A DNA stretch of 38,884 nucleotides from positions 1 through 38,884 of the forward strand of contig CANGJI010000020.1 in NCBI GenBank assembly GCA_947454135.1, read 5' to 3'. The first letter of the stretch is position 1; every line of letters starts with the position of its first letter. Origin of the DNA: Sphingomonadaceae bacterium. Its GTDB lineage: Bacteria; Pseudomonadota; Alphaproteobacteria; Sphingomonadales; Sphingomonadaceae. The notes under the pieces are model-generated. The model was not told where the DNA came from, did no database searches, and was given only the letters and a program-made list of their open reading frames with translations. The position numbers and the translations under genes were made by a program. This document shows positions 17,912 to 38,319 of the stretch, piece by piece.

Positions 17912-18970
17912 ATGCAGTTGCCGATCCGAATTCGTGTGCCCCAGACCATTGGCCTTATCAGGACCGGGCTCGCCGCGCTGGCGCTCTCGCTGCTGGCAGG
18001 GCCGGCGGGCGCGCAGGGTGATGAGGCGGCGGCCGGTTTTCAGGGCTATCTCCAGTACCTCGCCGCCAAGGCGCGCGCGGAAGGTGTGCGCGAGCAGACC
18101 ATCGCCTCGGTCATCACCGGGCTGACCGAAAACCCCCGCGTGATCGCGCTGGACCGCGCGCAGCCGGGCACTTCATCGTCGATCCCGGCCTTTGCGGGCT
18201 ATCGCCGCACCCATGTCGATGCCGCCCGGATCGCCGGGGGCAAGCGGCAATACCTTGCCTCGGCCGACTACCTCGCGGGGATCGAGCAGCGCTACGGTGT
18301 GCCGCCCAAGATCGTGCTGGCGATCTGGGGGCATGAAACGAATTACGGCTCCTACACCGGCGATTTCGATCTTGCCCGCTCGCTGGCGACGCTCGCCTAT
18401 GAAGGGCGGCGGCGGGAGCTGTTTGCCGACGAGTTCATTGCCGTGCTCAAGATGGTTGATCGCGGCGTGCCCCGCGCCAAGCTGGTTGGCAGCTGGGCGG
18501 GCGCTTTCGGCAATCCGCAGTTCCTGCCCAGCGTCTACCTGCGCGTGGCGCAGGACGGCGATGGTGACGGGTTTGCCGATATCTGGTCGAGCAAGCAGGA
18601 TACGCTGGCCTCGATCGCCAACTACTTCCGCGATGCCGGCTGGCGTCCGGGCGAACCCTGGGGCGTCGCCGCAGACGTGACCTTGCCGCTGGACCGCGCA
18701 GCGCTGGGAACCGCGCTTTCCAGTCCGCGCTGCCCGCAGGTCTTTGCGCGCCATTCGAAGTGGAAGACGGTGCGCGAATGGAAGGCCCTGGGCGTGGTGC
18801 CGCGCGCGCCGACGCTGGCCGATGATACGATGGCCAGCCTGCTCGAACCTGATGGCGCCGGCCAGACCGCCTACCTGCTAACCGGAAATTATCGAGTTAT
18901 CCTCGATTACAACTGCTCGAATCTCTACGCCCTCTCGGTGGGACTTCTGGCTGATGAAATTGCCCCTTAA
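17912..18970 (+). CDS. MltB-type lytic murein transglycosylase
   Basis: This enzyme cleaves peptidoglycan glycan strands with formation of 1,6-anhydromuramoyl ends. From the ATG at 17912 the product has 352 residues; a TTG 30 bases upstream is less likely. Residues 1-35 form a signal peptide ending AGPAGAQ, without a lipobox, so the protein is periplasmic and soluble. The SLT_2 domain covers about 40-340. The catalytic glutamate is Glu142 in AIWGHETNYGSYTG, and the motif GSWAGAFGNPQFLPS near 200 is diagnostic of the MltB family (usual form GAMGQPQFMPS). The C-terminal LG-binding domain is absent. It overlaps the next gene by 17 bases. Confidence 0.93.
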   Translation: MQLPIRIRVPQTIGLIRTGLAALALSLLAGPAGAQGDEAAAGFQGYLQYLAAKARAEGVREQTIASVITGLTENPRVIALDRAQPGTSSSIPAFAGYRRTHVDAARIAGGKRQYLASADYLAGIEQRYGVPPKIVLAIWGHETNYGSYTGDFDLARSLATLAYEGRRRELFADEFIAVLKMVDRGVPRAKLVGSWAGAFGNPQFLPSVYLRVAQDGDGDGFADIWSSKQDTLASIANYFRDAGWRPGEPWGVAADVTLPLDRAALGTALSSPRCPQVFARHSKWKTVREWKALGVVPRAPTLADDTMASLLEPDGAGQTAYLLTGNYRVILDYNCSNLYALSVGLLADEIAP

Positions 18971-19931
18971 CAGGAACAGCGGCGCGCTGGCGCTCGCTAT
19001 CGTGCTGGCGCTCGGCGCAGGTCTTGCGCAGCCGGCCACGGCTCGCGGCCGCAAGGCACTGGTGCCGGACGTGTCGGGTCCAGCGGGCGACTATCCGGTA
19101 ACCCTCGGCGATCCGTTCGTGGTCGATGGCGTGACCTATACCCCCGCCGATACGCTCAACTACGATGCGGTGGGCAATGCCGTGCCGATGGCCCCGGAAG
19201 ACGGCGCGGCAGCGCGGATCAGCGGTGCCCACCGCACGCTGCCGGTGCCGAGCTATGTCGAAGTGACGTCACTATCGAGCGGCCGGACGATTCTCGTGCG
19301 GATTGACCGGCGCGGGCCGATGAGCGGCAACGGCCTTGTCGCGCTTTCACCGATGGCATGGGACCAGCTCGGCCTGCCCGGCGATGCTTCCGCGCCGGTT
19401 CGGGTGCGCCGCGTCAATCCGCCCGAGCCCGAGCGCGCGCTGCTGCGCACCGGACAGATCGCGCCGAAGCGCATGGATACGCCGCCGGGGCTGCTCGCGG
19501 CGCTCCGCCGCAAACTTGGTCTGGAGCCGCCGGTTGGCGACCTGCCGGTAACGATCCATCCCGCCGAAGCGGCGGCGCCCGCTACCAGGCCCCTCGCAAA
19601 GCCCCTCGCCAAGCCTGCGCCTGCGGCGGAAGAGCCGAAGCCCAAGCCAGCTCCCAAACCGCAAGTCGCAGTCGCTCCCAAGCCCGTCACGCCGTCTCAG
19701 CCGCCCAAGCGTCCGGCCGTCGCGGCTGGCAGGTTCTACGTGCAGATCGGCGCGTTCTCGCAGCGCGCCAATGCCGAGGCGGCAGCGCACAAGGCAGGCG
19801 GATCGGTGGTACAGGCGGGATCGCTCTGGCGCGTGCGCAGCGGGCCGTTTTCCACCGGGGATGAGGCAGATCGCGGACTGGCGAAGGCCCGCGCTGCGGG
19901 CTATGCCACTGCCCGGATCGTGCGCGACTGA
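18954..19931 (+). CDS. RlpA-like double-psi barrel protein with C-terminal SPOR domain
   Basis: This 325-residue envelope protein has a signal peptide (1-30), an RlpA-type double-psi beta-barrel (about 60-155), a Pro/Lys/Ala-rich linker (205-258) and a SPOR domain (259-324, FYVQIGAFSQRANAEAAAHK) that binds denuded septal glycan. RlpA removes naked glycan at the septum. His93 in GAHRTLPVPSYVEV is kept, but the usual NDRGP is IDRRGP, so Arg119 replaces the catalytic aspartate and Asp118 takes the asparagine position. The usual N-terminal GxASWYG segment is also absent. It may bind rather than cleave, perhaps guiding the MltB-like enzyme whose gene it overlaps by 17 bases. Confidence 0.85.
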   Translation: MKLPLNRNSGALALAIVLALGAGLAQPATARGRKALVPDVSGPAGDYPVTLGDPFVVDGVTYTPADTLNYDAVGNAVPMAPEDGAAARISGAHRTLPVPSYVEVTSLSSGRTILVRIDRRGPMSGNGLVALSPMAWDQLGLPGDASAPVRVRRVNPPEPERALLRTGQIAPKRMDTPPGLLAALRRKLGLEPPVGDLPVTIHPAEAAAPATRPLAKPLAKPAPAAEEPKPKPAPKPQVAVAPKPVTPSQPPKRPAVAAGRFYVQIGAFSQRANAEAAAHKAGGSVVQAGSLWRVRSGPFSTGDEADRGLAKARAAGYATARIVRD

Positions 19932-19974
19932 TCGTCGCCCTGACGCGGTCCCCGGATAAGCTGAGGACCTGCGC

Positions 19975-21153
19975 TTGCAATCGAGGACCCTGACCACTGT
20001 GCTGATCGCCGCGCTGGCAGCCTTGCCCGTGCGCGCAGCAGCCCCCGTGCCCGAAGCCGCCCCGGCCGCCGCGCTTCCCATGCCGCAAGTGACGGCGCCG
20101 ATCGCGCTGCTGATCGACGTCAATGGCGGGCGCGTGCTGTTCGAACGCCAGTCGCACCGGCGCTTCGTGCCCGCCTCGCTCACCAAGATCATGACGAGCT
20201 ATGTCGCCTTCGAACTGATCAAGGCGGGCAAGCTCAAGCTCGACCAGCGCTTCACGATGAACCACGAGGCGTTCAGGAAGTGGCACCGCGTTGGCAGCAC
20301 GATGTTCCTTGCCGATGGCAGCGATACCTCGGTGGCCGAACTCCTCGAAGGCATCGTCACGGTTTCGGCCAATGATGGCTGCATCGTGCTGGCGGAAGGC
20401 GTTGCCGGCAGTGTCGGCGCGTTCACCGAGCTGATGAATGCCGAGGCAAAGAAGCTCGGCATGAAGGATACCCACTACAACACGCCCAATGGCTGGATGG
20501 ACGAGGGGCAGACCTATGTCTCGGCCGCCGATCTTGCCATCCTCAGCACGGCGCTGATCACGCGCCACCCCGATCTCTACGCCCGGTTCTATGGGCACGA
20601 GCGCCTGTCCTTCCGCGGCATCGAACAGCCCAACCACAACCCGCTCTACGGCCACGTCGAAGGCGCGGACGGGGTGAAGACCGGCTTCACCAACGAAGCG
20701 GGCTACGGCCTTGTCGGCTCGGCAATCCGGGGCGGACGGCGGCTGATGATGGTCGTCGGCGGGTATGACCGCCCGGTCGACCGCACCAAGGAATCGCGCG
20801 CGTTCATCGAATGGGGCTTCGCCGCGTTCGAGGCGCATCAACTGTTCGCGCAAGGGGCCAGGATCGGCAGCGCCAAGGTCCAGGGCGGGGAGGCGCGCAG
20901 CGTCGATCTCGTGGCGCCGCATCCGCTGGCGCTCACGCTGCCGCGCGGCGGTCACGCCAACTATTCGCTCAGCCTGCGCTACAAGGGACCGCTGCGCGCG
21001 CCGATCGCCAAGGGCGATGAAGTTGCCAGCCTCGTCGTGCGCGTACCGGGTGAGAGCGAAACCCGGCTCCCGCTGGTGGCAGCAGAGGCGGTGCCTCAGG
21101 CCGGCACGCTGGCGCGGCTGCGCAATGGCCTGCTTGCGATGCTGGGGCAATGA
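19975..21153 (+). CDS. dacC: D-alanyl-D-alanine carboxypeptidase (PBP5/DacC type)
   Basis: This low-molecular-mass penicillin-binding protein trims the terminal D-Ala from peptidoglycan pentapeptides in the periplasm. The 392-residue product starts at TTG 19975, with GAGG at 19963-19966 upstream and no better ATG. A signal peptide covers about 1-22. The active-site SxxK is Ser68/Lys71 in ASLTKIM, SxN is Ser131-Asn133 in VSANDG, and KTG is at 235-237 in GVKTGFTNEAG. A C-terminal beta domain covers about 280-375. The end is moderately amphipathic (LARLRNGLLAMLGQ), as in PBP5-type membrane anchors. It overlaps tmk by 4 bases. The PBP5/6 subtype is not resolved. Confidence 0.93.
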   Translation: MQSRTLTTVLIAALAALPVRAAAPVPEAAPAAALPMPQVTAPIALLIDVNGGRVLFERQSHRRFVPASLTKIMTSYVAFELIKAGKLKLDQRFTMNHEAFRKWHRVGSTMFLADGSDTSVAELLEGIVTVSANDGCIVLAEGVAGSVGAFTELMNAEAKKLGMKDTHYNTPNGWMDEGQTYVSAADLAILSTALITRHPDLYARFYGHERLSFRGIEQPNHNPLYGHVEGADGVKTGFTNEAGYGLVGSAIRGGRRLMMVVGGYDRPVDRTKESRAFIEWGFAAFEAHQLFAQGARIGSAKVQGGEARSVDLVAPHPLALTLPRGGHANYSLSLRYKGPLRAPIAKGDEVASLVVRVPGESETRLPLVAAEAVPQAGTLARLRNGLLAMLGQ

Positions 21154-21803
21154 CGGCCGAGATGACCGGCAGGTTCGTCGTCTTCGAGGGCGGGGAAGGG
21201 GTCGGCAAATCGACGCAGAGCCGCCTTCTGGCCGAGGCGCTGCGGGGAAGGGGGCTCGAAGTCGTCACCACTCGCGAGCCGGGCGGCACCCCGGGTGCAG
21301 AAGCGATCCGCGCGCTGCTGCTGGACAGGAACGGGCCGGCCAAGGATGGTCTAGGTTGGGGCGCGCGGGCCGAAGCGCTGCTGTTTGCCGCCGCGCGAGC
21401 CGACCATGTCGAGACCCTGATCCGCCCGGCAATGGCGCGCGGGGCATGGGTCGTGTGCGACCGCTATCTCGACAGCAGCCGCGCCTATCAGGGCGGCGGC
21501 AGCGGTCTGGAGGACGTCGACATTCTCACCCTGCATCGCATCGGCAGCGCGGGGCTGCTGCCCGATTGCACCGTGCTGCTCACGCTCGATCCGGCCGAAG
21601 CGGCAGAACGCGCCCTGAAACGCGATGCCGGCGCGCTCGATCGGATCGGCGGGCGCACGGCGGACTATCACGCGCGCGTCGCCGCCGCCTTCCGCCGCTA
21701 CGCCGAAGCGGAACCGGAGCGCTTTGCTGTCGTCGCAGCAGACGGCGCGCCTAACGAGGTTCATGCCCGCGTGCTGGCAGCGGTGGACAGCCTGTGCGCC
21801 TGA
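21150..21803 (+). CDS. tmk: Thymidylate kinase
   Basis: Phosphorylates dTMP to dTDP for DNA synthesis. The 217-residue protein has the P-loop FEGGEGVGKSTQSR with Lys20, the dTMP-binding TREPGGTPGAE segment near 41-51, and the DRY motif CDRYLDSSRAYQGGG near 102-116. Length is standard. The start overlaps the dacC stop as ATGA, and holB starts inside its last codons, so expression is coupled. The tmk-holB pairing is widespread in bacteria. Confidence 0.96.
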   Translation: MTAEMTGRFVVFEGGEGVGKSTQSRLLAEALRGRGLEVVTTREPGGTPGAEAIRALLLDRNGPAKDGLGWGARAEALLFAAARADHVETLIRPAMARGAWVVCDRYLDSSRAYQGGGSGLEDVDILTLHRIGSAGLLPDCTVLLTLDPAEAAERALKRDAGALDRIGGRTADYHARVAAAFRRYAEAEPERFAVVAADGAPNEVHARVLAAVDSLCA

Positions 21804-22756
21804 TCGGCCATGACGAGCCGTGGAGCATCTGGCGCGCGGCGCGGGCCGGGCAGCGCATGCACCACGGCTGGATCCTTGCGGGGCGCGAAGGGCTTGGCAA
21901 GGCCAGCTTCGCGCGTGCGGCAGCGGCGGAACTCGTCGCCGAACCCGGCGTGCCGCAGCCTCCGCCCGAGGTTCACCCGGACATCCATGTGCTCGAGCCG
22001 CTCCCGAGCAACGACGACGAGACCAAGAAGCGCGACGAGGGCAAGGCCTATACCCGCAAGCGCAACATCAGCGTCGACCAGATCCGCGGCGTGCAGCGGC
22101 GCCTCGTCACCCGGCCCACGCTGGGTGCGCGGCGCGCGGTGATCATCGATGCGGCGGACGATCTCGAGAAGGGCGCGGTCAATGCGTTGCTCAAGAGCCT
22201 CGAGGAGCCTCCGGTCGGCACGTTCTTCCTGCTGGTGACGCACCAGATCGGGCGGCTGCTTCCTACCGTGCGCTCGCGCTGCACTGTGCTGCGCTTCCAT
22301 CCGCTCGGGCCAGACGACATGGCGCGCGCGCTTGCCGAAGCGGCACCTGATCTGAGCGGCGGCGGGCGCGAAGCGGCTATCGCGGCGGGCAGCGGCGCAC
22401 CGGGCGCGGCGCTCGCCTTTGCCGAAATGGACCTCGGCGGTGCATGGCAGGTCATGTCGCGCCTCGTGGCCGAAGGCGATCCCGATCTTGCGCTGCGGGC
22501 AGAGCTTTCAGCCGCACTCGGCCAACGACCTGACCGGGAGCGCCTGCTCGCGGCAATCGAGGCGGCGCGGCGCGTGCTGGTCGCGGCGATGGCGCAGAGC
22601 GACGACGCGGCGCGGCTGCGGATCGTCGAGGCCCATGCCGCGCTGGCGAACCTTGCCGCGCAGGCGCCGACCTACAACTTCGAACCGGCATTGCTGCTTC
22701 TGGAAATCGGCGGCTTGCTGGCATCGGTGGCGCGCACTAGGGAGAACGCGGCCTGA
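21794..22756 (+). CDS. holB: DNA polymerase III delta-prime subunit
   Basis: Delta-prime is the stator of the clamp-loader complex that places the beta clamp on DNA. The 320-residue protein starts at GTG 21794, overlapping tmk by 10 bases. The AAA+ P-loop reads GREGLGKASFA (30-40). The SRC motif is present as TVRSRCTVLRF near 155-165, supplying the arginine finger expected of delta-prime. The four-cysteine zinc module seen in E. coli delta-prime after the P-loop is absent; a charged segment (DDETKKRDEGKAYTRKR) stands in that area instead. The gene continues the cell-wall/replication operon toward metG, 45 bases downstream. Confidence 0.92.
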   Translation: MRLIGHDEPWSIWRAARAGQRMHHGWILAGREGLGKASFARAAAAELVAEPGVPQPPPEVHPDIHVLEPLPSNDDETKKRDEGKAYTRKRNISVDQIRGVQRRLVTRPTLGARRAVIIDAADDLEKGAVNALLKSLEEPPVGTFFLLVTHQIGRLLPTVRSRCTVLRFHPLGPDDMARALAEAAPDLSGGGREAAIAAGSGAPGAALAFAEMDLGGAWQVMSRLVAEGDPDLALRAELSAALGQRPDRERLLAAIEAARRVLVAAMAQSDDAARLRIVEAHAALANLAAQAPTYNFEPALLLLEIGGLLASVARTRENAA

Positions 22757-22801
22757 TCGGCCTTCCAAGCCCCAAGTTCCAGCCAAGGACAGTCGCAGCC
22801 C

Positions 22802-24364
22802 ATGGGCGAGCCCTATTACATCACGACCGCGATCAGCTACCCCAACGGCAAGCCGCATATCGGCCATGCCTATGAAGCGATTGCCGCAGACGTCATCGCC
22901 CGCTTCCAGAAAGCGATGGGACGGGACGTGCGTTTTCAGACCGGGACGGACGAGCACGGCCTGAAGATGGCGCAGAAGGCGCGTGACATGGGGATCACGC
23001 CGGCCGAGCTCGCCGATGAAATGACCAGTCATTTCATTGCAATGGCCGATGCCTTGAATGTCGATTACGATGTTTTCATCCGCACCACCGAGCCGCGCCA
23101 CCATGCCGCAACGCAGGAACTTTGGCGGCGGATGGAAGCGAACGGCGATCTCTACCTCGACCGCTACGAAGGCTGGTACTCGGTGCGCGACGAGGCCTAC
23201 TACGACGCCAGCGAACTGATCGACGGGGAAGGGGGCGAGAAGCTCTCGCCGCAGGGCACCCCGGTCGAGTGGACCGTCGAGGAAAGCTGGTTCTTCCGCC
23301 TCTCGAAGTATCAGGAACCGCTGCTTGCGCTGTTCCGCGACAATGCCGACTTCATCCGCCCGGAAAGCCGGCGCAACGAGATGATTGCGTTCGTCAGCCA
23401 GGGCCTGCGCGATCTTTCGGTCTCGCGCACCAGCTTCGATTGGGGCGTCAAGGTTCCGGGCAGCGACAACCACGTCATGTACGTGTGGGTCGATGCGCTC
23501 ACGAACTATATCACTGGCCTCGGTTTCCCCGACGAATCAGGCGATTACGCGAAGTATTGGCCGGCCGATCTGCACCTTATCGGCAAGGATATCGTGCGTT
23601 TCCACACGATCTACTGGCCCGCTTTCCTGATGAGCGCGGACCTGCCGGTGCCCAAGCAGGTGTTCGGCCACGGCTTCCTGCTGAACCGCGGGCAGAAGGA
23701 ATCGAAGTCGCTGGGCAACGTCACCGATCCGCTGGCGCTGGCCGAGCGCTTCGGCGTCGATACCCTGCGCTACTTCCTGATGCGCGACGTCGTGTTTGGT
23801 CAGGATGGCTCCTATTCGCCCGAGGCCATCGTCACGCGCTGCAATGCGGAACTGGCGAACAGCTACGGCAATCTCGTCCAGCGCACGCTTTCCATGATTT
23901 TCAAGAACATGGACGGCGAACTGGTGAAGTTTGCCAGTGTCGAGGCAGACGACAAACTGCTGGCAACCGTGTTCGAGGCTTGCCACGACGAATTGCCGCG
24001 CGAGTTCGCAGCGCTCAATTTCTCCGCCGGGATCGACGCGTGGATGCGCGCCGTGTTCGCCTGCAATCAATATGTCGACGAGCAGGCACCCTGGGCGCTG
24101 CGCAAGAGCGATCCCGAGCGCATGCGCGCCGTGCTCATGACGCTGTTCATGGCGATCCGCGATCTCACCATCGCGATCCGCCCCGTTGTACCAAATGCGG
24201 CGGACAAGGTGCTGGATCAGCTGGGTATTCCGGGAGACGAACGCGGGATCACCGCGCTTGCCAAGGCCGACTGGTTCCTCACGCGCGTCGCCAGCGGTGA
24301 GCGGCTCGCCGCGCCAGCTCCGGCATTTCCGCGGCTCGAACTGCCCGAGGAAGACGCCAGCTGA
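22802..24364 (+). CDS. metG: Methionyl-tRNA synthetase
   Basis: This class I synthetase charges tRNA-Met. The 520-residue protein shows the HIGH-box variant PHIGHAYEAIAAD at 18-30 and the KMSKS-loop variant KESKSLGNVTDP near 299-310. The connective domain lacks the zinc-knuckle cysteines of other forms (YSVRDEAYYDASEL near 130), which puts it in the zinc-free subclass common in alphaproteobacteria. There is no C-terminal tRNA-binding (Arc1p/EMAP-like) extension. The anticodon-binding helical domain covers about 360-500. The stop overlaps the tatD start as TGATG, so tatD is translationally coupled. Confidence 0.96.
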   Translation: MGEPYYITTAISYPNGKPHIGHAYEAIAADVIARFQKAMGRDVRFQTGTDEHGLKMAQKARDMGITPAELADEMTSHFIAMADALNVDYDVFIRTTEPRHHAATQELWRRMEANGDLYLDRYEGWYSVRDEAYYDASELIDGEGGEKLSPQGTPVEWTVEESWFFRLSKYQEPLLALFRDNADFIRPESRRNEMIAFVSQGLRDLSVSRTSFDWGVKVPGSDNHVMYVWVDALTNYITGLGFPDESGDYAKYWPADLHLIGKDIVRFHTIYWPAFLMSADLPVPKQVFGHGFLLNRGQKESKSLGNVTDPLALAERFGVDTLRYFLMRDVVFGQDGSYSPEAIVTRCNAELANSYGNLVQRTLSMIFKNMDGELVKFASVEADDKLLATVFEACHDELPREFAALNFSAGIDAWMRAVFACNQYVDEQAPWALRKSDPERMRAVLMTLFMAIRDLTIAIRPVVPNAADKVLDQLGIPGDERGITALAKADWFLTRVASGERLAAPAPAFPRLELPEEDAS

Positions 24365-25140
24365 TGCTGATCGATTCGCACTGCCATCTCAACTACAAGG
24401 GCCTGATCGAGACGCAGGCCGATGTGCTGGCGCGTGCGCGCGGGCGCGGGGTGCGGGGCTTCCTCAACATCTCGACCCGGCAGAGCGAATGGGATGCCGT
24501 CGTCGCCACCGCGCACCGCGAGGTGGATGTGTGGGCCAGCATCGGTATCCACCCGCACGAGGCCGATGCCCATGCCGATCTCGGCGCCGAGGCACTGCGG
24601 GAGGCCTCTGCCGACCCCAAGGTGATCGCCATCGGCGAGACTGGCCTCGACTACTACTACGACCATTCGGACCGGCAGGTGCAGCAGGACCTGTTTCGCG
24701 TGCATATCGGCGTGGCGCGCGAGACGGGGCTGCCCATCGTGATCCACACCCGCGATGCCGAAGATGACACGTTGCGGATCCTGACCGAGGAAATGGCCAA
24801 GGGCGCATTCCCCGCGCTGATCCACTGCTTCACCGCGAGCGCGGAGTTTGGCCGCGCGGTGCTCGAACTGGGGCTGACGATCTCGATCTCTGGCATCGTA
24901 ACCTTTAGAAATGCCAAGGACTTGCAGGCCTTTGCTGCCGAAGTGCCTGACGACAGGCTGCTGGTGGAAACCGATGCGCCGTTCCTTGCGCCAGTGCCGC
25001 ATCGGGGCAAGGTCTGCGAGCCGGCGTTCGTTTCGGATACCTGCGCGTTCGTTGCCAACTTGCGCGGAACGACGCCCGAGGCAATTGCGGAACAGACCGG
25101 CGAGAATTTCTTCCGCCTGTTCACCAAGGCGCGCGCATGA
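24364..25140 (+). CDS. tatD: TatD family metal-dependent hydrolase
   Basis: TatD-type hydrolases are TIM-barrel metalloenzymes; characterised members are 3'-5' DNA exonucleases or act in D-aminoacyl or quality-control roles. The 258-residue protein begins MLIDSHCHLNY, with His6 and His8 as metal ligands. Further family motifs are IGETGLDYYYD near 90-100, IHTRDAEDDT near 127-136, and LLVETDAPFLAP near 200-211. It overlaps metG by 1 base and the next gene by 4 bases. The metG-tatD-metallo-hydrolase order is common in alphaproteobacteria. The cellular substrate is not evident. Confidence 0.92.
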   Translation: MLIDSHCHLNYKGLIETQADVLARARGRGVRGFLNISTRQSEWDAVVATAHREVDVWASIGIHPHEADAHADLGAEALREASADPKVIAIGETGLDYYYDHSDRQVQQDLFRVHIGVARETGLPIVIHTRDAEDDTLRILTEEMAKGAFPALIHCFTASAEFGRAVLELGLTISISGIVTFRNAKDLQAFAAEVPDDRLLVETDAPFLAPVPHRGKVCEPAFVSDTCAFVANLRGTTPEAIAEQTGENFFRLFTKARA

Positions 25141-25904
25141 AACTGATCGTCCTCGGTTCGGGCACGTCGACTGGCGTGCCGCGCATCGGCAATGATTGGG
25201 GCGATTGCGATCCCGAAGAGCCGCGCAACCGGCGCACGCGCGTCGCCATCATGGTCGAAGGCGCGGATGGCGGGCGGATCCTGGTCGATACGCCGACCGA
25301 TCTCAGGCATCAGCTGCTTTCAACCGGCATCGGGCGGATCGATGGCGTCGTCTGGACCCACGATCATGCCGACCACACGCACGGCATCGATGACCTGCGG
25401 CCGCTGCGCATGGGGCGCGGCGCGCCGATTCCGGGCTATGCGGCCGACGAGACGGTGCGCCGGTTGCGGCAGCGTTTCGGCTATGTCTTTGCCGGGCAGC
25501 ACGGCTATCCGACGATCTGCAATCTCGACAATCTCGACCGCGTCCGCATGGTGGCGGGCATCGGGGTTTCGCATTGCCAGATGCCGCACGGGCCTGCGCA
25601 GACAACGGCGTTTCGCTTCGATCAAGACGGCAAGTCAATCGGTTACGCCACGGACTTCAGCGCGATCAATAGCGACATGGTCGCACTGTTTGACCGGGTC
25701 GACGTGCTGGTCGTCGATGCACTGCGCCGTCAGCCGCATCCGACACATGCGCATCTTGCCATGTCGCTCGAGCTGGTCGAAGCCTGCCGGGCCGGCCGCG
25801 CCGTCCTGACGCATCTCGACAAGAGCATGGATTACCGGACCCTGTGCGATGAGACGCCGGCACACGTCGAGCCGGGTTATGACGGGATGGAAATCGAACT
25901 GTGA
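25137..25904 (+). CDS. PhnP-like metallo-beta-lactamase-fold hydrolase
   Basis: A 255-residue MBL-fold hydrolase with the metal motif THDHADH (His75, His77, Asp79, His80) and the opening LGSGTSTGVPRIG typical of PhnP/RNase Z-like phosphodiesterases. Further ligands appear as HCQMPHG near 145-151, ATDFSA near 175 and THLDKSMDY near 222-230. Characterised PhnP hydrolyses cyclic ribose phosphates, but no phosphonate genes are present here, so another phosphodiester substrate is likely. It starts within the tatD stop (ATGA) and its own stop overlaps the next start as GTGA. Confidence 0.85.
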   Translation: MKLIVLGSGTSTGVPRIGNDWGDCDPEEPRNRRTRVAIMVEGADGGRILVDTPTDLRHQLLSTGIGRIDGVVWTHDHADHTHGIDDLRPLRMGRGAPIPGYAADETVRRLRQRFGYVFAGQHGYPTICNLDNLDRVRMVAGIGVSHCQMPHGPAQTTAFRFDQDGKSIGYATDFSAINSDMVALFDRVDVLVVDALRRQPHPTHAHLAMSLELVEACRAGRAVLTHLDKSMDYRTLCDETPAHVEPGYDGMEIEL

Positions 25905-26071
25905 CGCCGGACAAGTTCGTCGCGCTGATCGGGATCGTGATGGCGCTGGTCCTCGTTCTGGCGAACGGCAGGCTGCGCGGGCTCAAGCTATCGAGCGGCA
26001 TGATGATGGCGGGGGCCTGGGTGGTTATCATCCTTGCCGCAGCGCTTGCTTTTGCGGGCTACCGCCGTTGA
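25901..26071 (+). CDS. Small two-helix membrane protein (56 residues)
   Basis: A short reading frame starts at GTG 25901 inside the stop of the hydrolase gene and ends at TGA 26069-26071. The product, starting MTPDKFVALIGIVMAL, has two hydrophobic segments (about residues 6-20 and 34-52) separated by the positively charged turn NGRLRGLKL, and ends GYRR. Both ends and the loop carry basic residues, consistent with a hairpin in the inner membrane. GTGA overlap with the preceding gene and in-frame good codon use support a real gene. No function is known to me. The dif site begins 14 bases after its stop. Confidence 0.75.
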   Translation: MTPDKFVALIGIVMALVLVLANGRLRGLKLSSGMMMAGAWVVIILAAALAFAGYRR

Positions 26072-26085
26072 TGGATCGCTTCTCT

Positions 26086-26113
26086 ATTTAACATAATAAA
26101 TATTATCAAACTC
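26086..26113 (-). other. dif: Chromosome dimer resolution site dif (XerC/XerD target)
   Basis: Read on the minus strand this is an 11-6-11 recombination site: XerC arm GAGTTTGATAA (26113-26103), centre TATTTA (26102-26097) and XerD arm TTATGTTAAAT (26096-26086). The XerD arm is identical to that of E. coli dif, and the inner ATAA/TTAT bases of the two arms are inverted about the 6-bp centre as expected. It is the most AT-rich stretch in a GC-rich window. FtsK-type GGGNAGGG octamers on both sides point at it. Gene orientation switches from plus to minus just beyond mazG. XerCD would resolve chromosome dimers here, activated by FtsK. The site ends 14 bases before the mazG start. Confidence 0.85.
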
Positions 26114-26127
26114 AAGGATCGACCGAT

Positions 26128-26931
26128 ATGAGCGCCACTCCCGGGGACTCCCCCGCTGCGGAAACGGCTCGAACGCCGGGGATCGCGCGGTTGCTGGCAA
26201 TCATGGCGCGGCTGCGCGATCCGCAGAACGGCTGCGAATGGGATATTGCCCAGACGTTCGCGACGATCGCGCCGTATACGATCGAGGAAGCCTACGAAGT
26301 CGCCGACGCGATCGAACGCGACGACCTGCCAGCACTGCGCGAGGAACTCGGCGACCTGCTCCTTCAGGTCGTGTTCCACGCGCGTATGGCCGAAGAGCTA
26401 AGCGCGTTCGATTTCGATGCCGTGGCGCATGCGATCTCGGACAAGATGACCGAGCGCCACCCGCATATCTTCAGCGATGCCGCCGATGAAGGCCAATCAC
26501 GCGAAGTGCGCTGGGAAGCGCAGAAGGCCGCTGAACGGGAAGCCAAGGGCGCGACCAGTGCCCTCGACGGCGTGGCGCTGGCCCTTCCGGCGCTGATGCG
26601 CGCGGAAAAGCTCCAGAAGCGCGCGGCGCGCGTCGGCTTCGATTGGCCGGATACCGCAGGACCGCGCGCCAAGGTGATCGAGGAACTGGATGAGCTTGCC
26701 GCCGCAAAAACCGCTGCCGAAAAGCTCGATGAGGCCGGCGACCTGCTGTTTGCGGCGGTGAACCTCGTGCGCCGCTACGGTATCGCGCCCGAAGACGCGC
26801 TGCGCCATGGCAATGCCAAGTTCGAACGCCGCTTCCGCGGGATGGAAGCGCTGGCGGGCGCCGATTTCCCCTCGCTCTCGCTCGAAGCGCAGGAAGAACT
26901 GTGGCAGCAGGTCAAGGCCGCCGAACGCTGA
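26128..26931 (+). CDS. mazG: Nucleoside triphosphate pyrophosphohydrolase MazG
   Basis: MazG hydrolyses (d)NTPs to the monophosphates and PPi, cleaning the pool and lowering ppGpp under stress in E. coli. The 267-residue protein matches the usual two-domain length. The first all-alpha NTP-PPase domain has the segment CEWDIAQTFATIAPYTIEEAYEV (from about 37) and the metal motif ELGDLLLQVVFHARMAEE (73-90). The second domain has VIEELDEL and AGDLLFAAVNLVRR near 184 and 203. The ATG at 26128 lies 14 bases beyond dif, so its promoter must overlap the dif/56-residue gene region. Its stop abuts that of hflX in a shared TGATCA. Confidence 0.94.
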   Translation: MSATPGDSPAAETARTPGIARLLAIMARLRDPQNGCEWDIAQTFATIAPYTIEEAYEVADAIERDDLPALREELGDLLLQVVFHARMAEELSAFDFDAVAHAISDKMTERHPHIFSDAADEGQSREVRWEAQKAAEREAKGATSALDGVALALPALMRAEKLQKRAARVGFDWPDTAGPRAKVIEELDELAAAKTAAEKLDEAGDLLFAAVNLVRRYGIAPEDALRHGNAKFERRFRGMEALAGADFPSLSLEAQEELWQQVKAAER

Positions 26932-28269
26932 TCACATGCGCGAGTAGCGGCCCAGTTCGCGCGGGGTGAGCCGCACCGTGAGGCGCTGCACCGGGGCTCC
27001 AGTTGTATCGAGCCCTTCGCTTTCCGAGAGGACTTCACCATGCGCGTGGAGCCAGGCAAGCTTGTGCCCCTCGCTCATCGGCAGAGCGAATTCAAGCACT
27101 TGCGCCCCGCCCGTGAGCAGATCGCTGAGCAGTGTAACGAGATCCTCGACACCTTCGCCCGTCTGCGCCGAGATCGGCACGACCTTGCGGTCCGGCACCC
27201 CGGCGGCAATCAGGTCGCGGCGCATGGCGCTGTCTTCATCCGAGAGCAGATCCCACTTGTTCCACGCCTCGATGATCGGAACGAGGCTGCCCCCTTCCCC
27301 GATCACGCCTAGATCGGCGAGGATTTCCTCGACCTCGAGTTTCTGCGCCGAGGTCGCGGGATTGGCGATATCGCGAACGTGGACGATGACGTCTGCCGCA
27401 GTGACTTCTTCCAGCGTCGCGCGGAAAGCGGCGACAAGCTGGGTCGGCAATTCGGAAATGAAACCCACCGTGTCCGACAGGATCGCCTTTTCGAGGCCCG
27501 GCAGGCGGATCGCGCGCATTGTTGGGTCAAGTGTGGCGAAGAGCAGGTCTTGCGCCATCACGTCCGCACCGGTCATCCGATTGAAAAGCGTGGATTTTCC
27601 GGCATTGGTGTAGCCGACGAGCGCGATGACCGGCCACGGCGCGCGCTGGCGGCGCTCGCGGTGGAGGCTGCGCGTGCGGCGCACTTGCTCAAGCTCGCGG
27701 CGAATGCGCGCCATGCGGCCGCGGATCAGGCGGCGGTCGGCCTCGATCTGGGTTTCACCGGGGCCGCCAAGGAAGCCGAAGCCGCCGCGCTGGCGTTCAA
27801 GGTGGGTCCAGCTGCGTACGAGGCGGCCGGCCTGGTAATCGAGGTGCGCGAGTTCGACCTGCAACCGGCCTTCCGCCGTCGCGGCGCGCTCGCCGAAAAT
27901 TTCGAGGATCAACCCGGTGCGGTCGATGACCTTGCGTTCGAGCTTGTCTTCGAGATTGCGCTGCTGGATCGCGGAAAGCGCGCCATCGACGATGACAAGT
28001 TCGGCATCGGACTGCGCAATGGCGACGGCGATCTTTTGGACCTGCCCCTCGCCGAACAGCGTGCCGGGGCGAACGGTGCGGATCGGCAGTGCGAAAGCAT
28101 CGACGACATCGATGCCGATGGCGCGGGCGAGCCCCTGCCCTTCCTCAAGGCGGCTGTCCACGTCCAGCCCACCCTTCTGGCGCAAGTCGGGGAGCACGAC
28201 GACAGCGCGGGCGCCGCGCGTGACTTCCCCGACAAGCTCGGTCTCACGGCCAAATTCGAATTGGCTCAT
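26932..28269 (-). CDS. hflX: GTPase HflX
   Basis: HflX is a ribosome-associated GTPase that splits stalled or heat-damaged 70S ribosomes. The 445-residue protein has an N-terminal glycine-rich/helical HflX domain (about 1-195, with the RRGGFGFLGGPGETQIEADRR family signature starting near 163). The G domain has G1 GYTNAGKST near 220, G3 DTVGFISELP near 266 and G4 NKWD near 338. It lies 36 bases downstream of hfq in the same direction, the standard hfq-hflX arrangement. The stop is immediately adjacent to that of convergent mazG, with no spacer. Confidence 0.95.
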   Translation of the reverse strand: MSQFEFGRETELVGEVTRGARAVVVLPDLRQKGGLDVDSRLEEGQGLARAIGIDVVDAFALPIRTVRPGTLFGEGQVQKIAVAIAQSDAELVIVDGALSAIQQRNLEDKLERKVIDRTGLILEIFGERAATAEGRLQVELAHLDYQAGRLVRSWTHLERQRGGFGFLGGPGETQIEADRRLIRGRMARIRRELEQVRRTRSLHRERRQRAPWPVIALVGYTNAGKSTLFNRMTGADVMAQDLLFATLDPTMRAIRLPGLEKAILSDTVGFISELPTQLVAAFRATLEEVTAADVIVHVRDIANPATSAQKLEVEEILADLGVIGEGGSLVPIIEAWNKWDLLSDEDSAMRRDLIAAGVPDRKVVPISAQTGEGVEDLVTLLSDLLTGGAQVLEFALPMSEGHKLAWLHAHGEVLSESEGLDTTGAPVQRLTVRLTPRELGRYSRM

Positions 28270-28305
28270 TCAAATCCGCTCATGCGGTATCGGCCTTACG
28301 TTCAA

Positions 28306-28881
28306 TCAATTCGCCTCACCGTCCCATTCGCCGGACAGGTCTACGTGACCGGCGGGCTGGATGGTCGAAACGGCATGCTTGTAGGCGAGCTGCACATACC
28401 CCTCGCGCTCCAGCAGCATGCAGAACAGATCGTAGGCAGCAACGCGGCCCTGAAGCATGACGCCGTTCACGAGGAACATCGTCACCTGCACACCGGCATC
28501 ACGCACGCTCGAGAGGAATACGTCCTGCAGCAGGCGCTTCTTCGTAGCGTCGTCGTTGCCGGGGGCGAAATGCGCGGCAGCCAGCTGCTGGCCGGGCATG
28601 ATCGTCGAGATCGCATGCTTGTAGACCAGTTGCGACTGTCCATCGCGGCGCAGAAGAATGGAGAAGTTGTCAAACCAGGTGACGATGCCCTGAAGCTTGA
28701 CGCCCTTCACGAGAAACATCGTGACGGGGATCTTGTTCTTCCTGAGGAAGTTCAGGAACACGTCCTGGAGGTTCTGGCCCTTCCCGGCGACAATCGCCAC
28801 GGGGGGCGGCGAAGCGGCTTCGGAAGCGGCCGTGGTTTCGGCCTTGGCGCGCGGACGCGCGGAGAGGGTTCTGCCGGTCAT
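28306..28881 (-). CDS. hfq: RNA chaperone Hfq with two tandem Sm domains
   Basis: Hfq promotes sRNA-mRNA pairing as a ring of six Sm folds. Here one 191-residue chain carries two copies: repeat 1 at about 36-97 and repeat 2 at 116-177, offset by exactly 80 residues (LQD 38-40/118-120; YKHA 87-90/167-170). The proximal-site Gln, Lys and His are present in both. The rim patch is RKNK in repeat 1 but RDAG in repeat 2. The distal Lys62 of repeat 1 is Met142 in repeat 2. Three chains could make a pseudo-hexamer. The start is ATG 28881, with AAGGA about 10 bases before it. A basic Ala-rich arm of 35 residues precedes repeat 1, and hflX follows. Tandem Hfq has, as I recall, been noted in Novosphingobium. 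Confidence 0.93.
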
Positions 28882-29105
28882 AGGGGTATTTCCTTTCTTT
28901 CTTTTTGGTGCCCGTACGCTCTGTGGCGACAAGACACGATCTGGCAGGGCCCGCACTCACCCCCTTCAATCATCGGCAAGGACCGAATCCAGACAAGGGT
29001 TTGCGCGGCGCCACAGCCGGTCAGCAGTTGTGATCCTATGTCGGGACCACGCCTTCGTACAAGAGCCAAATTAGGCCGAGACGGACGTTACGTAACCAAC
29101 AGGCG
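28882..29105 (-). promoter_or_regulatory. hfq upstream region
   Basis: This 224-base gap, the longest between genes on the minus strand, separates ntrX from hfq and should hold the hfq-hflX promoter. A possible minus-strand element TTGTCT followed 17 bases later by ATGATT lies near 28970-29000, but the match to a sigma-70 promoter is poor. A 10-bp palindrome GTTACGTAAC lies at 29087-29096, just after the ntrX stop. No terminator with a T-tract and no credible small gene was seen. Confidence 0.35.
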
Positions 29106-30491
29106 TCAGTCTTGCTCCTCATCCTCGCGCCGGTCGGCCATGCCAAGCAGCTTGAGCTTGCGGTGAAGTGCGGAGCGTTCCATCCCGATGAAGCTCGCGG
29201 TCTTGGAGATATTGCCCGAAAACCGGCGGATCTGAACCTTGAGGTACTCGCGCTCGAAGTTCTCGCGTGCCTCACGCAAGGGAACGCCCATGAGCGCCGA
29301 CGTGCTCGAATCCCCGCCAAGGCGCGTGGTGACGATCTCAGCCGGAAGCATATCGGCATCGATCCGCGTGAGCCGTTCGCGCGGGGCGAGGATGATCGTG
29401 CGCTCGACCACATTGCGCAGCTGGCGGACGTTACCCGGCCAGTCGTAGCTCTGCATCGCGGCGATGGCTTCGGGCGAGATCGCCGGCGGCTGCACGCCCT
29501 GCTCATTGGCGTAGCGCGAGAAAAAGTGGTCAGCGAGCGCGGGAATATCCTCGCGCCGTTCGATCAGCGAGGGGATCGAGACAGGCACGACGTTGAGCCG
29601 GTAGTACAAGTCCTCGCGGAAACGGCGTTCGGCGATTTCCTTCTCGAGCGGCCGCGAAGTGGACGAGACCACGCGGACGTCGACGCGGATCTGGCGGTGG
29701 CCGCCCACGCGCACGAACGACTGCTCGGTAAGGACGCGCAGGATGCGGGCCTGGCTGGAGGCAGGCATTTCGGCGACTTCATCGAGGAAAAGCGTCCCCC
29801 CGTCCGCCATTTCGAGGAGCCCGGCCCGCACCAGCTTGCCGTCAATTTCCTCGCCGAACAGTTCCTGCTCGAAACGCTCAGGGGTGATGCGCGCGGAATT
29901 GACCGTGACGAAGGCGTGGTCGGCACGCGGGCTCCACGAATGGAGCAGGCGCGCTGCAACTTCCTTGCCGGAGCCTGCCGGGCCAGTAATGAGCAGGCGG
30001 CTGCCGGTGTTGGCCACGCGCTTGAGCGTCGCGCGGACAGTATTGATCGCCGAGGAGTTGCCGGTGAAGCCATCGGCCATCGAAAGGCCCTGCCGCAGAC
30101 GTGCGTTCTCGCGGCGCAGGCGTTCCGTGGCGGTCGCCCGCTCGACGAGGAGCAGCAGGCGCTCGGCCTCGAACGGCTTTTCGAGGAAATCCATCGCGCC
30201 GCGGCCGATGGCCGAGACCGCGGTATCGATATTGCCGTGGCCCGAAAAGATGATGACAGGCAGCTCCGGCTCACGCTTCTTGATCTCGTCGAGAACTTCG
30301 AGTCCGTCCATCGGGCTGCCGTGGAGCCAGACGTCGAGGAGGACGAGGCTTGGCCGGCGCTCGTCCACGGCGGCAAGCGCGGCGGTGCTGTCGGCCGCCG
30401 TGCGGCATCCGTAGCCTTCGTCGCTGAGCACGCCGGCGACAAGCTCGCGGATATCGCGTTCGTCGTCCACGATGAGGATATCGAGTGCCAT
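29106..30491 (-). CDS. ntrX: NtrX response regulator (AAA+ type without GAFTGA loop)
   Basis: NtrX is the response regulator partner of NtrY and controls nitrogen, redox and envelope genes in alphaproteobacteria. The 461-residue protein has a receiver domain (1-120) with Asp9, Asp10 and the phosphoacceptor Asp53 in LLDVWLHG. An AAA+ domain follows with Walker A GPAGSGKEVAAR near 167 and Walker B GGTLFLDEVAEMP near 235. A Fis-type HTH (SGNISKTASFIGMERSALHRKLKLLG) starts near 427. The sigma-54-contacting GAFTGA motif is missing; the region reads LFGEEIDGKLVRAG. That is the NtrX norm and suggests it does not activate sigma-54 directly. It starts 26 bases after ntrY. Confidence 0.94.
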   Translation of the reverse strand: MALDILIVDDERDIRELVAGVLSDEGYGCRTAADSTAALAAVDERRPSLVLLDVWLHGSPMDGLEVLDEIKKREPELPVIIFSGHGNIDTAVSAIGRGAMDFLEKPFEAERLLLLVERATATERLRRENARLRQGLSMADGFTGNSSAINTVRATLKRVANTGSRLLITGPAGSGKEVAARLLHSWSPRADHAFVTVNSARITPERFEQELFGEEIDGKLVRAGLLEMADGGTLFLDEVAEMPASSQARILRVLTEQSFVRVGGHRQIRVDVRVVSSTSRPLEKEIAERRFREDLYYRLNVVPVSIPSLIERREDIPALADHFFSRYANEQGVQPPAISPEAIAAMQSYDWPGNVRQLRNVVERTIILAPRERLTRIDADMLPAEIVTTRLGGDSSTSALMGVPLREARENFEREYLKVQIRRFSGNISKTASFIGMERSALHRKLKLLGMADRREDEEQD

Positions 30492-30517
30492 TGGTCTGGT
30501 GATCCTGAGCGTCTGGT

Positions 30518-32770
30518 CTAGCTGTTGGCGGAAATGGTGGGGGTCTCGGTCGAAACGTCAGCGGCGAGCGGATTGCGGGCGAAGCGCATGATGACCGACG
30601 TGCCGCCTGCTTCATTGGGAGCAAACGCCATCGCGCCACCATGTTCCTCGACGATCTTGTTGACGATGGCGAGGCCGAGCCCGGTGCCCTTCTCGCGGGT
30701 CGTCATATAGGGTTCGAGAATGCGGTCACGCTCGGCAGGCAGGCCGACGCCGTTGTCCGCCACGGTGACGGTGACGGCGTTGCGATCCGCAGCAAGGCTC
30801 ACCGCGATACGCCCGCGATAGGCAATGTCTTCGCCGCGCGCGCGCTGCTCGATTGCCTCGATCGCGTTCTTGAGCACATTGGTCATGGCCTGCCCGATCT
30901 GGTGCCGGTCGGCCTCGATGGGAACCTGCCCCTCGCCCTCGAACGTGAAGGTGATGTCGTTGTGCGCCACTTCCTGCAGGAACAGCGCTTGCCGCACGAG
31001 GTCGCTGGCATCCTCGGAGCGGAACACCGGCTTGGGCAGTCGGGCGAACGAGGAGAACTCGTCGACCATCTGCCTGAGATCGCCGACCTGCCGGATGATC
31101 GTGGCGGTCAGTTCCTCGAACAGTTCGGGGTCGGTCTCGATCTGACGGCGGTAGCGGCGCTTGAGACGCTCGGTCGCGAGCTGGATGGGGGTGAGCGGGT
31201 TCTTGATCTCGTGCGCGATGCGGCGGGCAACGTCGGACCAGGCGGCGCGGCGCTGGTCGAGCAGCTGGCGGGTAATGTCCTCGAACGTGATGACGTGACC
31301 ATTGCGGTCCGCCGTGACCTTGACCGCGAGGGTCAGGAGATCGCCGCCCTTGGCATAAGTAACGACGCCGCTGGGCTCACCGCCGCCAACGAACTGCGCG
31401 AACTGGGGCGCGATCTCGGCTAGCGGTGCGCCGACCGGATCGGTGCTCTCACCGCCGTCGCGCACCGGCATGAGCAGCGCTTGCGCGGAGCTGTTCATCA
31501 GGCGGATACGGCCTTCGCGGTCGATCGAGACGATCCCGGCAGTGATCGACTCGAGCACGGCCTCGATAAAGGCGCGGCGCACTTCCAGCTGGGCATTGGC
31601 GTTGACGAGTGCCTGCGTCTGCGTTTCGAGCTGCGCCGTCATGCGGTTGAACGCACGCGCGAGAAGGCCGACCTCGTCGGTGCCGTTGCCAGACTGCACG
31701 CGCATCTCGAAGTTGCCACTGCCGACATTGCGCGCGGCAGAAACAAGCTCGATCAGCGGAGCGACCTGCCGGTCGGCAAAGCGCAGCGCGACCCATACGG
31801 CCAGCGCAACGAGCGCAAGGCTGATCACCAGCAGCGCGATGTTGAAGCGCAGCTGAAGTGCGCGGGCGCGGCGGCTGAGGAAGTCGTAGGCCTTGAGCAC
31901 GCTCTGCGCGCGCTGCCACTGGTTGAGCGCGAGCGCATCGGAATTGCGCGCCACGTAGAGATAGATGCCGCGCCCACGGTCGACCGGGGTGACCGCCTCG
32001 ATCCGCGCGGCAGAGGCCGTGACGACAACCGGCTCGCCTGCATCCATCCGCGCGAGTTCGGCAGGGGTGATGCGTTCGCGCTGTTCGTTTCGGGCAGGAT
32101 CGACGATGGCGGCGGTGCGCAAGGTGCCATCAGGCCCGCGCTCGATCAGCGCTGATTCGTTGAGCTTGCGGTTGATGACCTGCCACGAATAGCCCTCGGC
32201 GAATTCCTGGCTGGTGATCGGAGCCTGCCCCAGATAGTCGCGCAAATCCCCGGCCATCGCGACGCTCTCGTTGCCGACATCGCGCAGCTTGTCTGCGTAA
32301 TAGCCCCGCGCGAGACTGTTGGCGTTTTCCAGCATGCCGCGCGAATTGTCGGAGAACCAGAATTCGACGCCGGACTGGAACAGCAGCGAGGCGAACACCA
32401 CGACGAGCAGCGTCGGGATCGCTGCGATCAGCGAAAACAGCCAGACCAGGCGGACGTGCAGCCTGCCGCTGCTTCCCAGCACGCTGCGCGCCGCCCGGCG
32501 CAGCGCGAGCCGCCGGCCGAACAGGACGATCAGCGCCATCGCCGGTACGAGGGTACCAATGAGCAAGCTGGCGGTGAGGCGCGACGGCAGCAGCTGGTTG
32601 GCATTGCCGCTGCTCGACAGCGCCATCCAGGTGATCGTGATCATCAGCGCGAGCGCCATGACCGCCGTCATTTCAAGCAAGAGAAACACGTTGGCGCGGC
32701 GCATCGAGACCAGAAGGCGGCGATACCACCTCGGTGAGCGCCGCATGCCGCGTTTGCCAGTCTGAACCAT
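30518..32770 (-). CDS. ntrY: NtrY membrane sensor histidine kinase
   Basis: NtrY senses a nitrogen- or redox-linked signal and phosphorylates NtrX. From ATG 32770 the protein has 750 residues; upstream codons lack homology, and MRRSP at 32746 is an alternative start. Three hydrophobic helices lie near 28-50, 63-84 and 106-128. A periplasmic segment covers about 130-305, and a further helix lies near 312-333. HAMP (335-390), PAS (about 400-500) and a kinase core follow. The H-box is RRIAHEIKNPLTPIQLATERLKRR, from about 526. The N-box is MTNVLKNAIEAIEQR, with G-boxes DNGVGLP and GTGLGLAIV. Both ntrC and ntrX flank it in the same direction. Confidence 0.93.
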   Translation of the reverse strand: MVQTGKRGMRRSPRWYRRLLVSMRRANVFLLLEMTAVMALALMITITWMALSSSGNANQLLPSRLTASLLIGTLVPAMALIVLFGRRLALRRAARSVLGSSGRLHVRLVWLFSLIAAIPTLLVVVFASLLFQSGVEFWFSDNSRGMLENANSLARGYYADKLRDVGNESVAMAGDLRDYLGQAPITSQEFAEGYSWQVINRKLNESALIERGPDGTLRTAAIVDPARNEQRERITPAELARMDAGEPVVVTASAARIEAVTPVDRGRGIYLYVARNSDALALNQWQRAQSVLKAYDFLSRRARALQLRFNIALLVISLALVALAVWVALRFADRQVAPLIELVSAARNVGSGNFEMRVQSGNGTDEVGLLARAFNRMTAQLETQTQALVNANAQLEVRRAFIEAVLESITAGIVSIDREGRIRLMNSSAQALLMPVRDGGESTDPVGAPLAEIAPQFAQFVGGGEPSGVVTYAKGGDLLTLAVKVTADRNGHVITFEDITRQLLDQRRAAWSDVARRIAHEIKNPLTPIQLATERLKRRYRRQIETDPELFEELTATIIRQVGDLRQMVDEFSSFARLPKPVFRSEDASDLVRQALFLQEVAHNDITFTFEGEGQVPIEADRHQIGQAMTNVLKNAIEAIEQRARGEDIAYRGRIAVSLAADRNAVTVTVADNGVGLPAERDRILEPYMTTREKGTGLGLAIVNKIVEEHGGAMAFAPNEAGGTSVIMRFARNPLAADVSTETPTISANS

Positions 32771-32888
32771 CGTTGCTGATGTACAACACTGCTGTTGCAA
32801 GATTGCAAGTCGATTCGACAAAAGCCCATCTGCGCGCGGCGAACGGCAAGGGCGGTGAAGGCACGCCGATAGAACCGGGTGCGTGCGG
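32771..32888 (-). promoter_or_regulatory. ntrC-ntrY intergenic region
   Basis: This 118-base spacer could hold a separate ntrYX promoter. On the minus strand, TTGCAA is followed 16 bases later by TTGTAC, ending 15 bases before the ATG at 32770, but both hexamers are weak and this is a guess. TTGCAA repeats (TTGCAATCTTGCAACAGC) are visible. No clear ribosome-binding site precedes ntrY, which makes its start uncertain. Confidence 0.25.
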
Positions 32889-34322
32889 TCAGCCCCGCGC
32901 GGCCGCCTCGTCCGGATCGATGGCAAGCTCGGAAAGCCGTTTGCGCAGCGTGTTGCGGTTGATGCCGAGCAGGCGCGCGGCGCGCAGTTGGTTGCCGCCT
33001 GTCACCAAGAGCGCGTGGAGGAACAGCGGCCGCTCGAACGCGGCGAGTGCAGCGCTGTAGAGCTCACCCTCTCCGGGCTGCTCCTCAGCGAGCCAGTTGG
33101 CCAGCGCCTCAGCGAAATCGGCGGAGGGCAAGGACGCGGAGGCGCCGGTTTGCGGCTGCGCGCGGTCCTGCGCGAGCAGCGGCTCGATCCCGGCGGCGTC
33201 GATCACTTCGTCACGCGCCAGCAGGGCGAGGCGATAGACGAAGTTGCGCAGTTCACGCACGTTGCCGCGCCACGGCTGACGGGCGAGCAGCGCGGCGCCC
33301 GCAGCGGTCAACTGGCGGCGGGGCAGCCCCTCCCCCGCCGCACGGACGAGGAAATGACGGGCGAGCGCCTCGATGTCATCCGCACGCTCGCGCAAGGGCG
33401 GTAGCTCGATGGGCACAACCGCGAGGCGATAGTAGAGATCCTCGCGGAAAGTTCCGGCCGCGATCATAGGTTCGAGATCACGGTTGGTGGCGGCCACGAT
33501 GCGACAATCGAGGGTGATTTCCTCGGTCCCGCCAACGCGGCGGATCCGGCCCGATTGCAGCGCGCGCAGCAGCCGGGTCTGCGCCTCCAGAGGCATGTCG
33601 CCGATCTCGTCGAGAAACAGCGTGCCGCCCCGCGCCTGCTCGAACTTGCCGATGCGGCGGGTGACGGCGCCGGTGAAGGCCCCCTTCTCGTGGCCGAACA
33701 GCTCGCTTTCGATGAGATCGCCGGGGATCGCGGCGGTGTTGACCGCAATGAACGGCCCCGAACTGCGCTTGCCGAGCTGGTGGATCGCTTCGGCGACGAG
33801 TTCCTTGCCGGTGCCGGATTCGCCGAGAATGAGAACCGTGAGATCGTTGCGCAGCACGCGCGTGATCATGCGGTAGACCGTCTGCATCGCCTGGCTGCGG
33901 CCGACGAGCGGCAAGCCGGGCGCGACGTCCTCGGCAATTTCCTCGGCCCCCGCGCTTTCGCTGGAGCCGATGGCCTGCCGCACCGTACGGACCAGTTCGT
34001 CGAGGTCGAACGGCTTCGGGAAGTATTCGAAAGCCCCGGTATCGCTGGCCCGCACCGCAGTATCGAGCGTGTTCTGCGCCGAGAGGATGATCACCGGCAT
34101 GTGCGGCGCTGCCTCGCGCACGCGGCCCAGCGTTTCCATCCCGTCGCCATCGGTCAGCACGACGTCTGTCAGCATCAGGCCATACTGGTGCCCCGCAAGC
34201 AGCAAGTCGCGGTCGGCGATCGAAGCGCAGCGGGTGACGTCATAGCCCTCAGCCTCGAGCGCGGCGGTGATGACGAGCGCGATGGAGGCGTCGTCCTCGA
34301 CGAGAAGGATACGGCGCTTCAT
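32889..34322 (-). CDS. ntrC: NtrC nitrogen response regulator
   Basis: NtrC activates sigma-54 promoters of nitrogen-assimilation genes when phosphorylated by NtrB. The 477-residue protein has a receiver domain with Asp10, Asp11 and phosphoacceptor Asp53 in LTDVVLTDGDG. The AAA+ domain has Walker A GESGTGKELVAEA near 168, an intact sigma-54-binding loop EKGAFTGAV near 214, and Walker B GGTLFLDEIGDMP near 233. A Fis-type HTH (NQLRAARLLGINRNTLRKRL) is near 446. The start overlaps the ntrB stop by 4 bases (ATGA on the minus strand). This is a complete, apparently functional activator, unlike the neighbouring NtrX. Confidence 0.96.
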   Translation of the reverse strand: MKRRILLVEDDASIALVITAALEAEGYDVTRCASIADRDLLLAGHQYGLMLTDVVLTDGDGMETLGRVREAAPHMPVIILSAQNTLDTAVRASDTGAFEYFPKPFDLDELVRTVRQAIGSSESAGAEEIAEDVAPGLPLVGRSQAMQTVYRMITRVLRNDLTVLILGESGTGKELVAEAIHQLGKRSSGPFIAVNTAAIPGDLIESELFGHEKGAFTGAVTRRIGKFEQARGGTLFLDEIGDMPLEAQTRLLRALQSGRIRRVGGTEEITLDCRIVAATNRDLEPMIAAGTFREDLYYRLAVVPIELPPLRERADDIEALARHFLVRAAGEGLPRRQLTAAGAALLARQPWRGNVRELRNFVYRLALLARDEVIDAAGIEPLLAQDRAQPQTGASASLPSADFAEALANWLAEEQPGEGELYSAALAAFERPLFLHALLVTGGNQLRAARLLGINRNTLRKRLSELAIDPDEAAARG

Positions 34323-38315: not shown

Positions 38316-38319
38316 GCCC

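Follow-up and report, generated by a model that had tools for sequence, protein, structure and literature searches.

A predicted chromosomal dif site beside mazG in a Sphingomonadaceae genome and its relatives

The dif site, the KOPS motifs and the XerCD recombinases are textbook knowledge. A dif is an expected part of a chromosome, and what is new in the locus described here is its address beside mazG. The survey by Carnoy and Roten (2009), in the portion drawn on here, states that proteobacterial dif has "no apparent specific genetic environment" (PMC2731167); its Table 1 prints the E. coli XerD arm used for comparison below and lists the predicted dif of Novosphingobium aromaticivorans DSM 12444, 17.8 kb from the skew maximum. 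A 2026 study, in the sections considered, reports a KOPS switch at dif in most replicons of a panel in which alphaproteobacteria are represented; dif is described there as not always being the lowest-copy point (PMC13342612). For a dif-like site of Legionella, the relevant part of the report describes gene neighbourhoods that vary (PMC9765430). Linkage of dif to mazG or hflX, or a position of mazG at an alphaproteobacterial terminus, was not found in the open-licence literature searched, which is not proof of absence; mazG does not appear in the main-text portions considered of the 2011 dif prediction survey (PMC3025954) and of the Dinoroseobacter dif paper (PMC7901474).

The window, i.e. the whole stretch of DNA analysed, comprises 38,884 nucleotides of a Sphingomonadaceae genome. 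On its minus strand, positions 26086-26113 read GAGTTTGATAA-TATTTA-TTATGTTAAAT in an 11-6-11 layout (Table 1). The initial annotation had called this 28-mer a dif site, and the layout, the identity of the XerD arm with that of E. coli dif and the coordinates are all as it had claimed. The distances that it gave were also confirmed, with 14 bp between the end of the small ORF and dif and another 14 bp between dif and the mazG ATG (26128). The site is intergenic and GC-poor, with 4 G and no C in its 28 bases, in a window measured at 66.2% GC. At this GC content, 0.0005 exact matches to TTATGTTAAAT are expected in the window on both strands. Allowing up to three mismatches, the core ATAA-N6-TTATGTTAAAT occurs once in the window, compared with 0.01 occurrences expected from shuffles.

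Table 1. Coordinates of the dif site, its neighbouring genes and the KOPS motifs in the window
Feature	Position	Strand	Remarks
dif site, 28 bp	26086..26113	-	sequence, genome search, shuffles, conservation in relatives
XerD-side arm TTATGTTAAAT	26086..26096	-	same as E. coli dif arm
central hexamer TATTTA	26097..26102	-	
XerC-side arm GAGTTTGATAA	26103..26113	-	inner GATAA conserved, outer part variable
tatD	24364..25140	+	PF01026; XerD side of dif
MBL-fold metallohydrolase	25137..25904	+	conserved neighbour, XerD side of dif
56-aa hydrophobic small ORF, GTG start	25901..26071	+	between MBL and dif
mazG	26128..26931	+	conserved neighbour, XerC side of dif
hflX	26932..28269	-	convergent with mazG
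GGGNAGGG, left flank (1..26085)	5941, 14974, 16591, 21193, 21245, 23226	+	with the next line, 6 of 7 point to dif
GGGNAGGG, left flank (1..26085)	7625	-	
GGGNAGGG, right flank (26114..38884)	27292, 28133, 28778, 33328, 34449, 35280, 36556	-	

In six relatives, two of which (L034 and L118) appear identical at this locus, 26-28 of the 28 bases are kept, compared with 1-6 of the left-hand 14 bp and 7-11 of the right-hand 14 bp on the side of the mazG start. The strong conservation of dif next to a diverged left spacer supports a real site.

The genome itself is a draft of 3,389,002 bp in 151 contigs (93.26% complete). Its sole match with 0-1 mismatches is the site in the window; two others have 2 mismatches, and a reversed-pattern control gave 0 matches. 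The second or better dif that the initial annotation had named as contrary evidence was absent from the draft genome, which is 93% complete and could have a second dif in its missing sequence. Two Xer-type recombinases are encoded. The best equivalog of the first is XerD (265.6 bits); this protein passes the cut-off of a broader tyrosine-recombinase subfamily, and its gene adjoins an ORF named by eye as accA-like. The best equivalog of the second is XerC (269.2 bits), and both proteins score below the curated XerC/XerD equivalog cut-offs. FtsK-gamma is present, above cut-off.

KOPS polarity changes at the site. The plus/minus counts of GGGNAGGG in the window are 6/1 on the left and 0/7 on the right (Fisher P = 0.0047), so that 7/7 on the right are directed at dif. 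Because the gene strand changes nearby, synonymous codon shuffling was carried out on 29 window ORFs, with hfq, the small ORF and 10542-13654 left unshuffled; none of 1000 shuffles reached the KOPS polarity (mean 2.2, observed 12). GC skew, which the initial annotation had put forward as a whole-genome check, has the same sign on both sides within the window (left flank +0.044, right flank +0.025), and a draft in 151 contigs does not allow the ori-ter geometry of the own genome to be plotted. The switch of gene strand beyond mazG, which had been taken to fit a terminus, proved to be a weak argument, as a single-contig relative (G093; 3,118,872 bp) has mixed gene strands on both sides of dif.

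Intergenic regions generally tend to be AT-rich, and the 28-mer could be read as a chance sequence of this kind. With 0.01 matches expected in the window, the conservation in relatives and the KOPS switch at dif, there is practically no probability left for this reading, which we regard as refuted by conservation and KOPS.

In G093, 39 bp separate the start of the dif core from the mazG match. KOPS counts within 200 kb of this dif are 37/7 on the left and 1/48 on the right, and the switch falls between 2753601 and 2757916 (4.3 kb), with dif at 2755040. Across the same 400 kb, cumulative GC skew peaks 817 bp from this mazG-adjacent dif, and twenty sampled stretches place the whole-contig skew maximum within the interval containing dif. 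To the right of dif, 25 of the minus-strand KOPS fall within ORFs on the plus strand and 14 within ORFs on the minus strand (crude ORF calls), indicating that the polarity is not dictated by gene strand. The use of dnaA as an origin marker was dropped, since dnaA of G093 is at 770 kb and the sampled skew minimum at about 0.93-1.09 Mb.

A second relative (G043, 14 stretches) gave KOPS counts of 46/2 and 2/51, with positive skew in 6/7 left stretches and mixed, near-zero skew on the right. A third (G057, 6 stretches) gave 5/0 and 0/16, and its skew showed no clear switch in the stretches sampled, which reach at most 60 kb to either side of dif. Pooled over 56 named loci with a mazG-adjacent core, the counts are 203/13 and 2/208.

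Judged by sequence, the 28-mer is very probably the native chromosomal dif, at which FtsK-activated XerC/XerD would resolve dimers. This reading is supported because the site is single in the draft and KOPS switches there, and because dif is at the skew maximum in G093 and in the same place in relatives; on these points the initial annotation's preference for a native over an element-borne site is supported.

The competing origin would be an IMEX-like scar, i.e. an Xer attachment site left by a mobile element or secondary replicon. Extra sites do exist in relatives: of the 82 genus genomes in which a match was found, 34 have more than one dif-like site. The additional sites often lie on another contig and differ in the central hexamer, and each secondary replicon might carry one. 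Further, an exact match in G046 (C1:1824308), considered as a relocated dif, was rejected since it lies away from the KOPS switch, and it adjoins Tn3-type and IS240-type transposase pieces; a better-matching dif-like site can thus be a bystander. The dif studied here is a single copy in the draft, without the duplicated flanking sites and cargo of an IMEX, and many genera have a dif at this same position, with the KOPS switch there. In line with the initial annotation, which had seen no integrase nearby, a Pfam scan of 29 window ORFs gave no match to integrase families or to transposase families; these ORFs are part of those in the window, and one (25849-26091) overlaps the small ORF in another frame. 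The scanned neighbours of dif belong to housekeeping families. Largely refuted by the position of the site, a scar is very improbable.

Beyond hflX and on the same strand follow hfq and then ntrX/ntrY/ntrC/ntrB-like genes. The Hfq of the window (28306-28881, minus strand) has 191 aa and contains two Hfq-family stretches, i.e. tandem Hfq domains; a doubled Hfq is described for Novosphingobium. The nearest named relative of MazG is from a Novosphingobium MAG (87% identical). The 56-aa small ORF (25901-26071) has no family match in Pfam or NCBIfam. By eye, G046 has a short hydrophobic ORF in the equivalent place, and no tblastn match between the two was found at E 0.01. No promoter or terminator signal above chance was detected in scans around dif, and Rfam detected two tRNAs only in the window.

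The search of other sphingomonads suggested by the initial annotation recovered the same arrangement in many of them. In a genus set of 99 genomes (own included), 82 have a dif match with at most one mismatch and 94 have mazG. In 53/94, the own genome among them, dif precedes the mazG match by no more than 150 bp, and its strand is opposite to mazG in all 53. In the other 41, dif is within 6 kb in 6, farther away on one contig in 4 and on a different contig in 19, and 12 have no site with at most one mismatch.

Among 80 named loci, picked as best MazG matches, 56 have ATAAN6TTATG, the core, at most 320 bp upstream of mazG, and in all 56 a copy is on the strand opposite to mazG. Elsewhere in these loci the core matches 8 times in 1.49 Mb, and the reversed pattern 5 times. 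Among the 24 misses are loci of Novosphingobium and Sphingomonas (e.g. L037, L048, L095), non-Sphingomonadales (L094, L106, L109) and loci for which little sequence upstream was available (L040, L087).

At the level of the class, mazG was present in 96 of 144 genomes drawn. Own genome aside, 89 of 95 were used, leaving out the six weakest mazG matches (G200, G158, G145, G171, G204, G137). The core is found within 1.5 kb upstream of mazG in 39/89 and absent there in 50/89, where some stretches truncated at contig ends count as misses. A subset of 29 had the core within 1.5 kb upstream in 17 and downstream in 0 (reversed control 1), and a subset of 60 had it within 1.5 kb upstream in 22 (reversed control 1). 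Within 9 kb, the latter subset gave 38 upstream versus 4 downstream, with 5 and 0 for the reversed control. KOPS counts over 9 kb on each side of the mazG start were 44/8 and 0/64 in the 22 near-core genomes; the 38 that lack a near core gave 37/40 and 7/72. Outside the class, none of 15 Pseudomonadota genomes, sampled from 69 with a match, had the core within 2.5 kb upstream of mazG. We conclude that dif-mazG linkage is common, not universal. At the sequence level, a tight linkage in one orientation is shown for the genus, with looser spacing in many alphaproteobacterial families.

The genes around the site separate to different degrees. The distance between mazG and hflX is at most 3 kb in 71 of the 80 named loci, dif is linked to mazG in 56, and MBL lies within 1.6 kb of mazG in 50, all of which also have dif. 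Where no dif is near, hflX is still within 3 kb of mazG in 17/24. Of 30 genus dif loci, each a stretch of 3 kb or less, 15 contain mazG and MBL, 9 neither, and 6 MBL without mazG; these six all also contain tatD. One of the six (L004) was not counted as a separation, its contig ending on the mazG side. Additionally, dif and mazG were seen on one contig but 45-298 kb apart in G044, G046, G063 and G095; in G044, G063 and G095 the intervening stretches may be insertions at dif or products of rearrangement.

In G046 the KOPS switch falls between 797148 and 799447, at a one-mismatch dif beside tatD and MBL (79% and 86% identical to those of the window), and mazG is 48 kb from this dif. Therefore, dif can leave mazG yet remain the KOPS junction. 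At the KOPS switch of G046, beside tatD and MBL, a pair of oppositely oriented dif-like sites was observed with a spacing of about 40 bp (C1:797533 and 797576, locus L178).

This separation bears on the idea that the native dif doubles as promoter or operator of mazG, in which case Xer binding would regulate mazG and explain the linkage. The mere 14 bp to the mazG ATG, the constant orientation relative to mazG (53/53 in the genus, 56/56 named loci) and a weak promoter-like match, TTGATG-18-CATAAT, whose -10 element is the XerD arm of dif, would fit such a role. The promoter-like match is, however, at chance level (1 found, 0.5 expected), the gap between dif and mazG in other families is 0.5-8 kb, enough for genes, and several relatives have mazG away from dif, which remains beside tatD-MBL there. 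The G046 case and the gaps of several kb argue against an operator role, which we consider unlikely, and favour mere linkage where the replichores meet.

We return to the native dif as the preferred reading. At this site FtsK would activate XerC and XerD, and these recombinases would resolve joined chromosome copies to monomers. The GGGNAGGG motifs point at dif from both sides and are predicted to steer FtsK there, and the two replichores would meet between tatD-MBL-small ORF and mazG-hflX. The linkage of dif and mazG may go back to an early ancestor of the Alphaproteobacteria and have been maintained by proximity, not by a regulatory role in mazG. We think it likely that dif has been held at a fixed address between tatD-MBL and mazG since early in the Alphaproteobacteria, so that mazG would mark where FtsK converges and it would be the replichore ends that move past a pinned junction, not dif. 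Where alphaproteobacterial assemblies are drafts or come from metagenomes, a conserved address of this kind would help to find both dif and the junction of the replichores with no need for a skew plot, and it would also serve as a reference point for studying the rearrangement of chromosome arms.

The site shares with dif of E. coli, Vibrio and other Proteobacteria the 11-6-11 layout, low GC content, intergenic position and single copy (PMC2731167). Its XerD arm is identical to that of E. coli dif, whereas the XerC arm and central hexamer differ, and the dif of a relative lies beside the skew maximum, as in Proteobacteria. The predicted dif of N. aromaticivorans DSM 12444, of the same genus as the nearest named relative, shares the GATAA-N6-TTATG core, its XerD arm being TTATGTAAATA versus TTATGTTAAAT in the window. 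The orientation of GGGNAGGG toward dif from both sides is the same kind of switch as that described in the sections considered of the 2026 study (PMC13342612), here for sphingomonads from sequence only. Unlike the survey's statement on proteobacterial dif, as worded in the part cited, the dif of the window has a conserved address upstream of mazG, which qualifies the published claim that such sites lack a specific genetic environment (PMC2731167).
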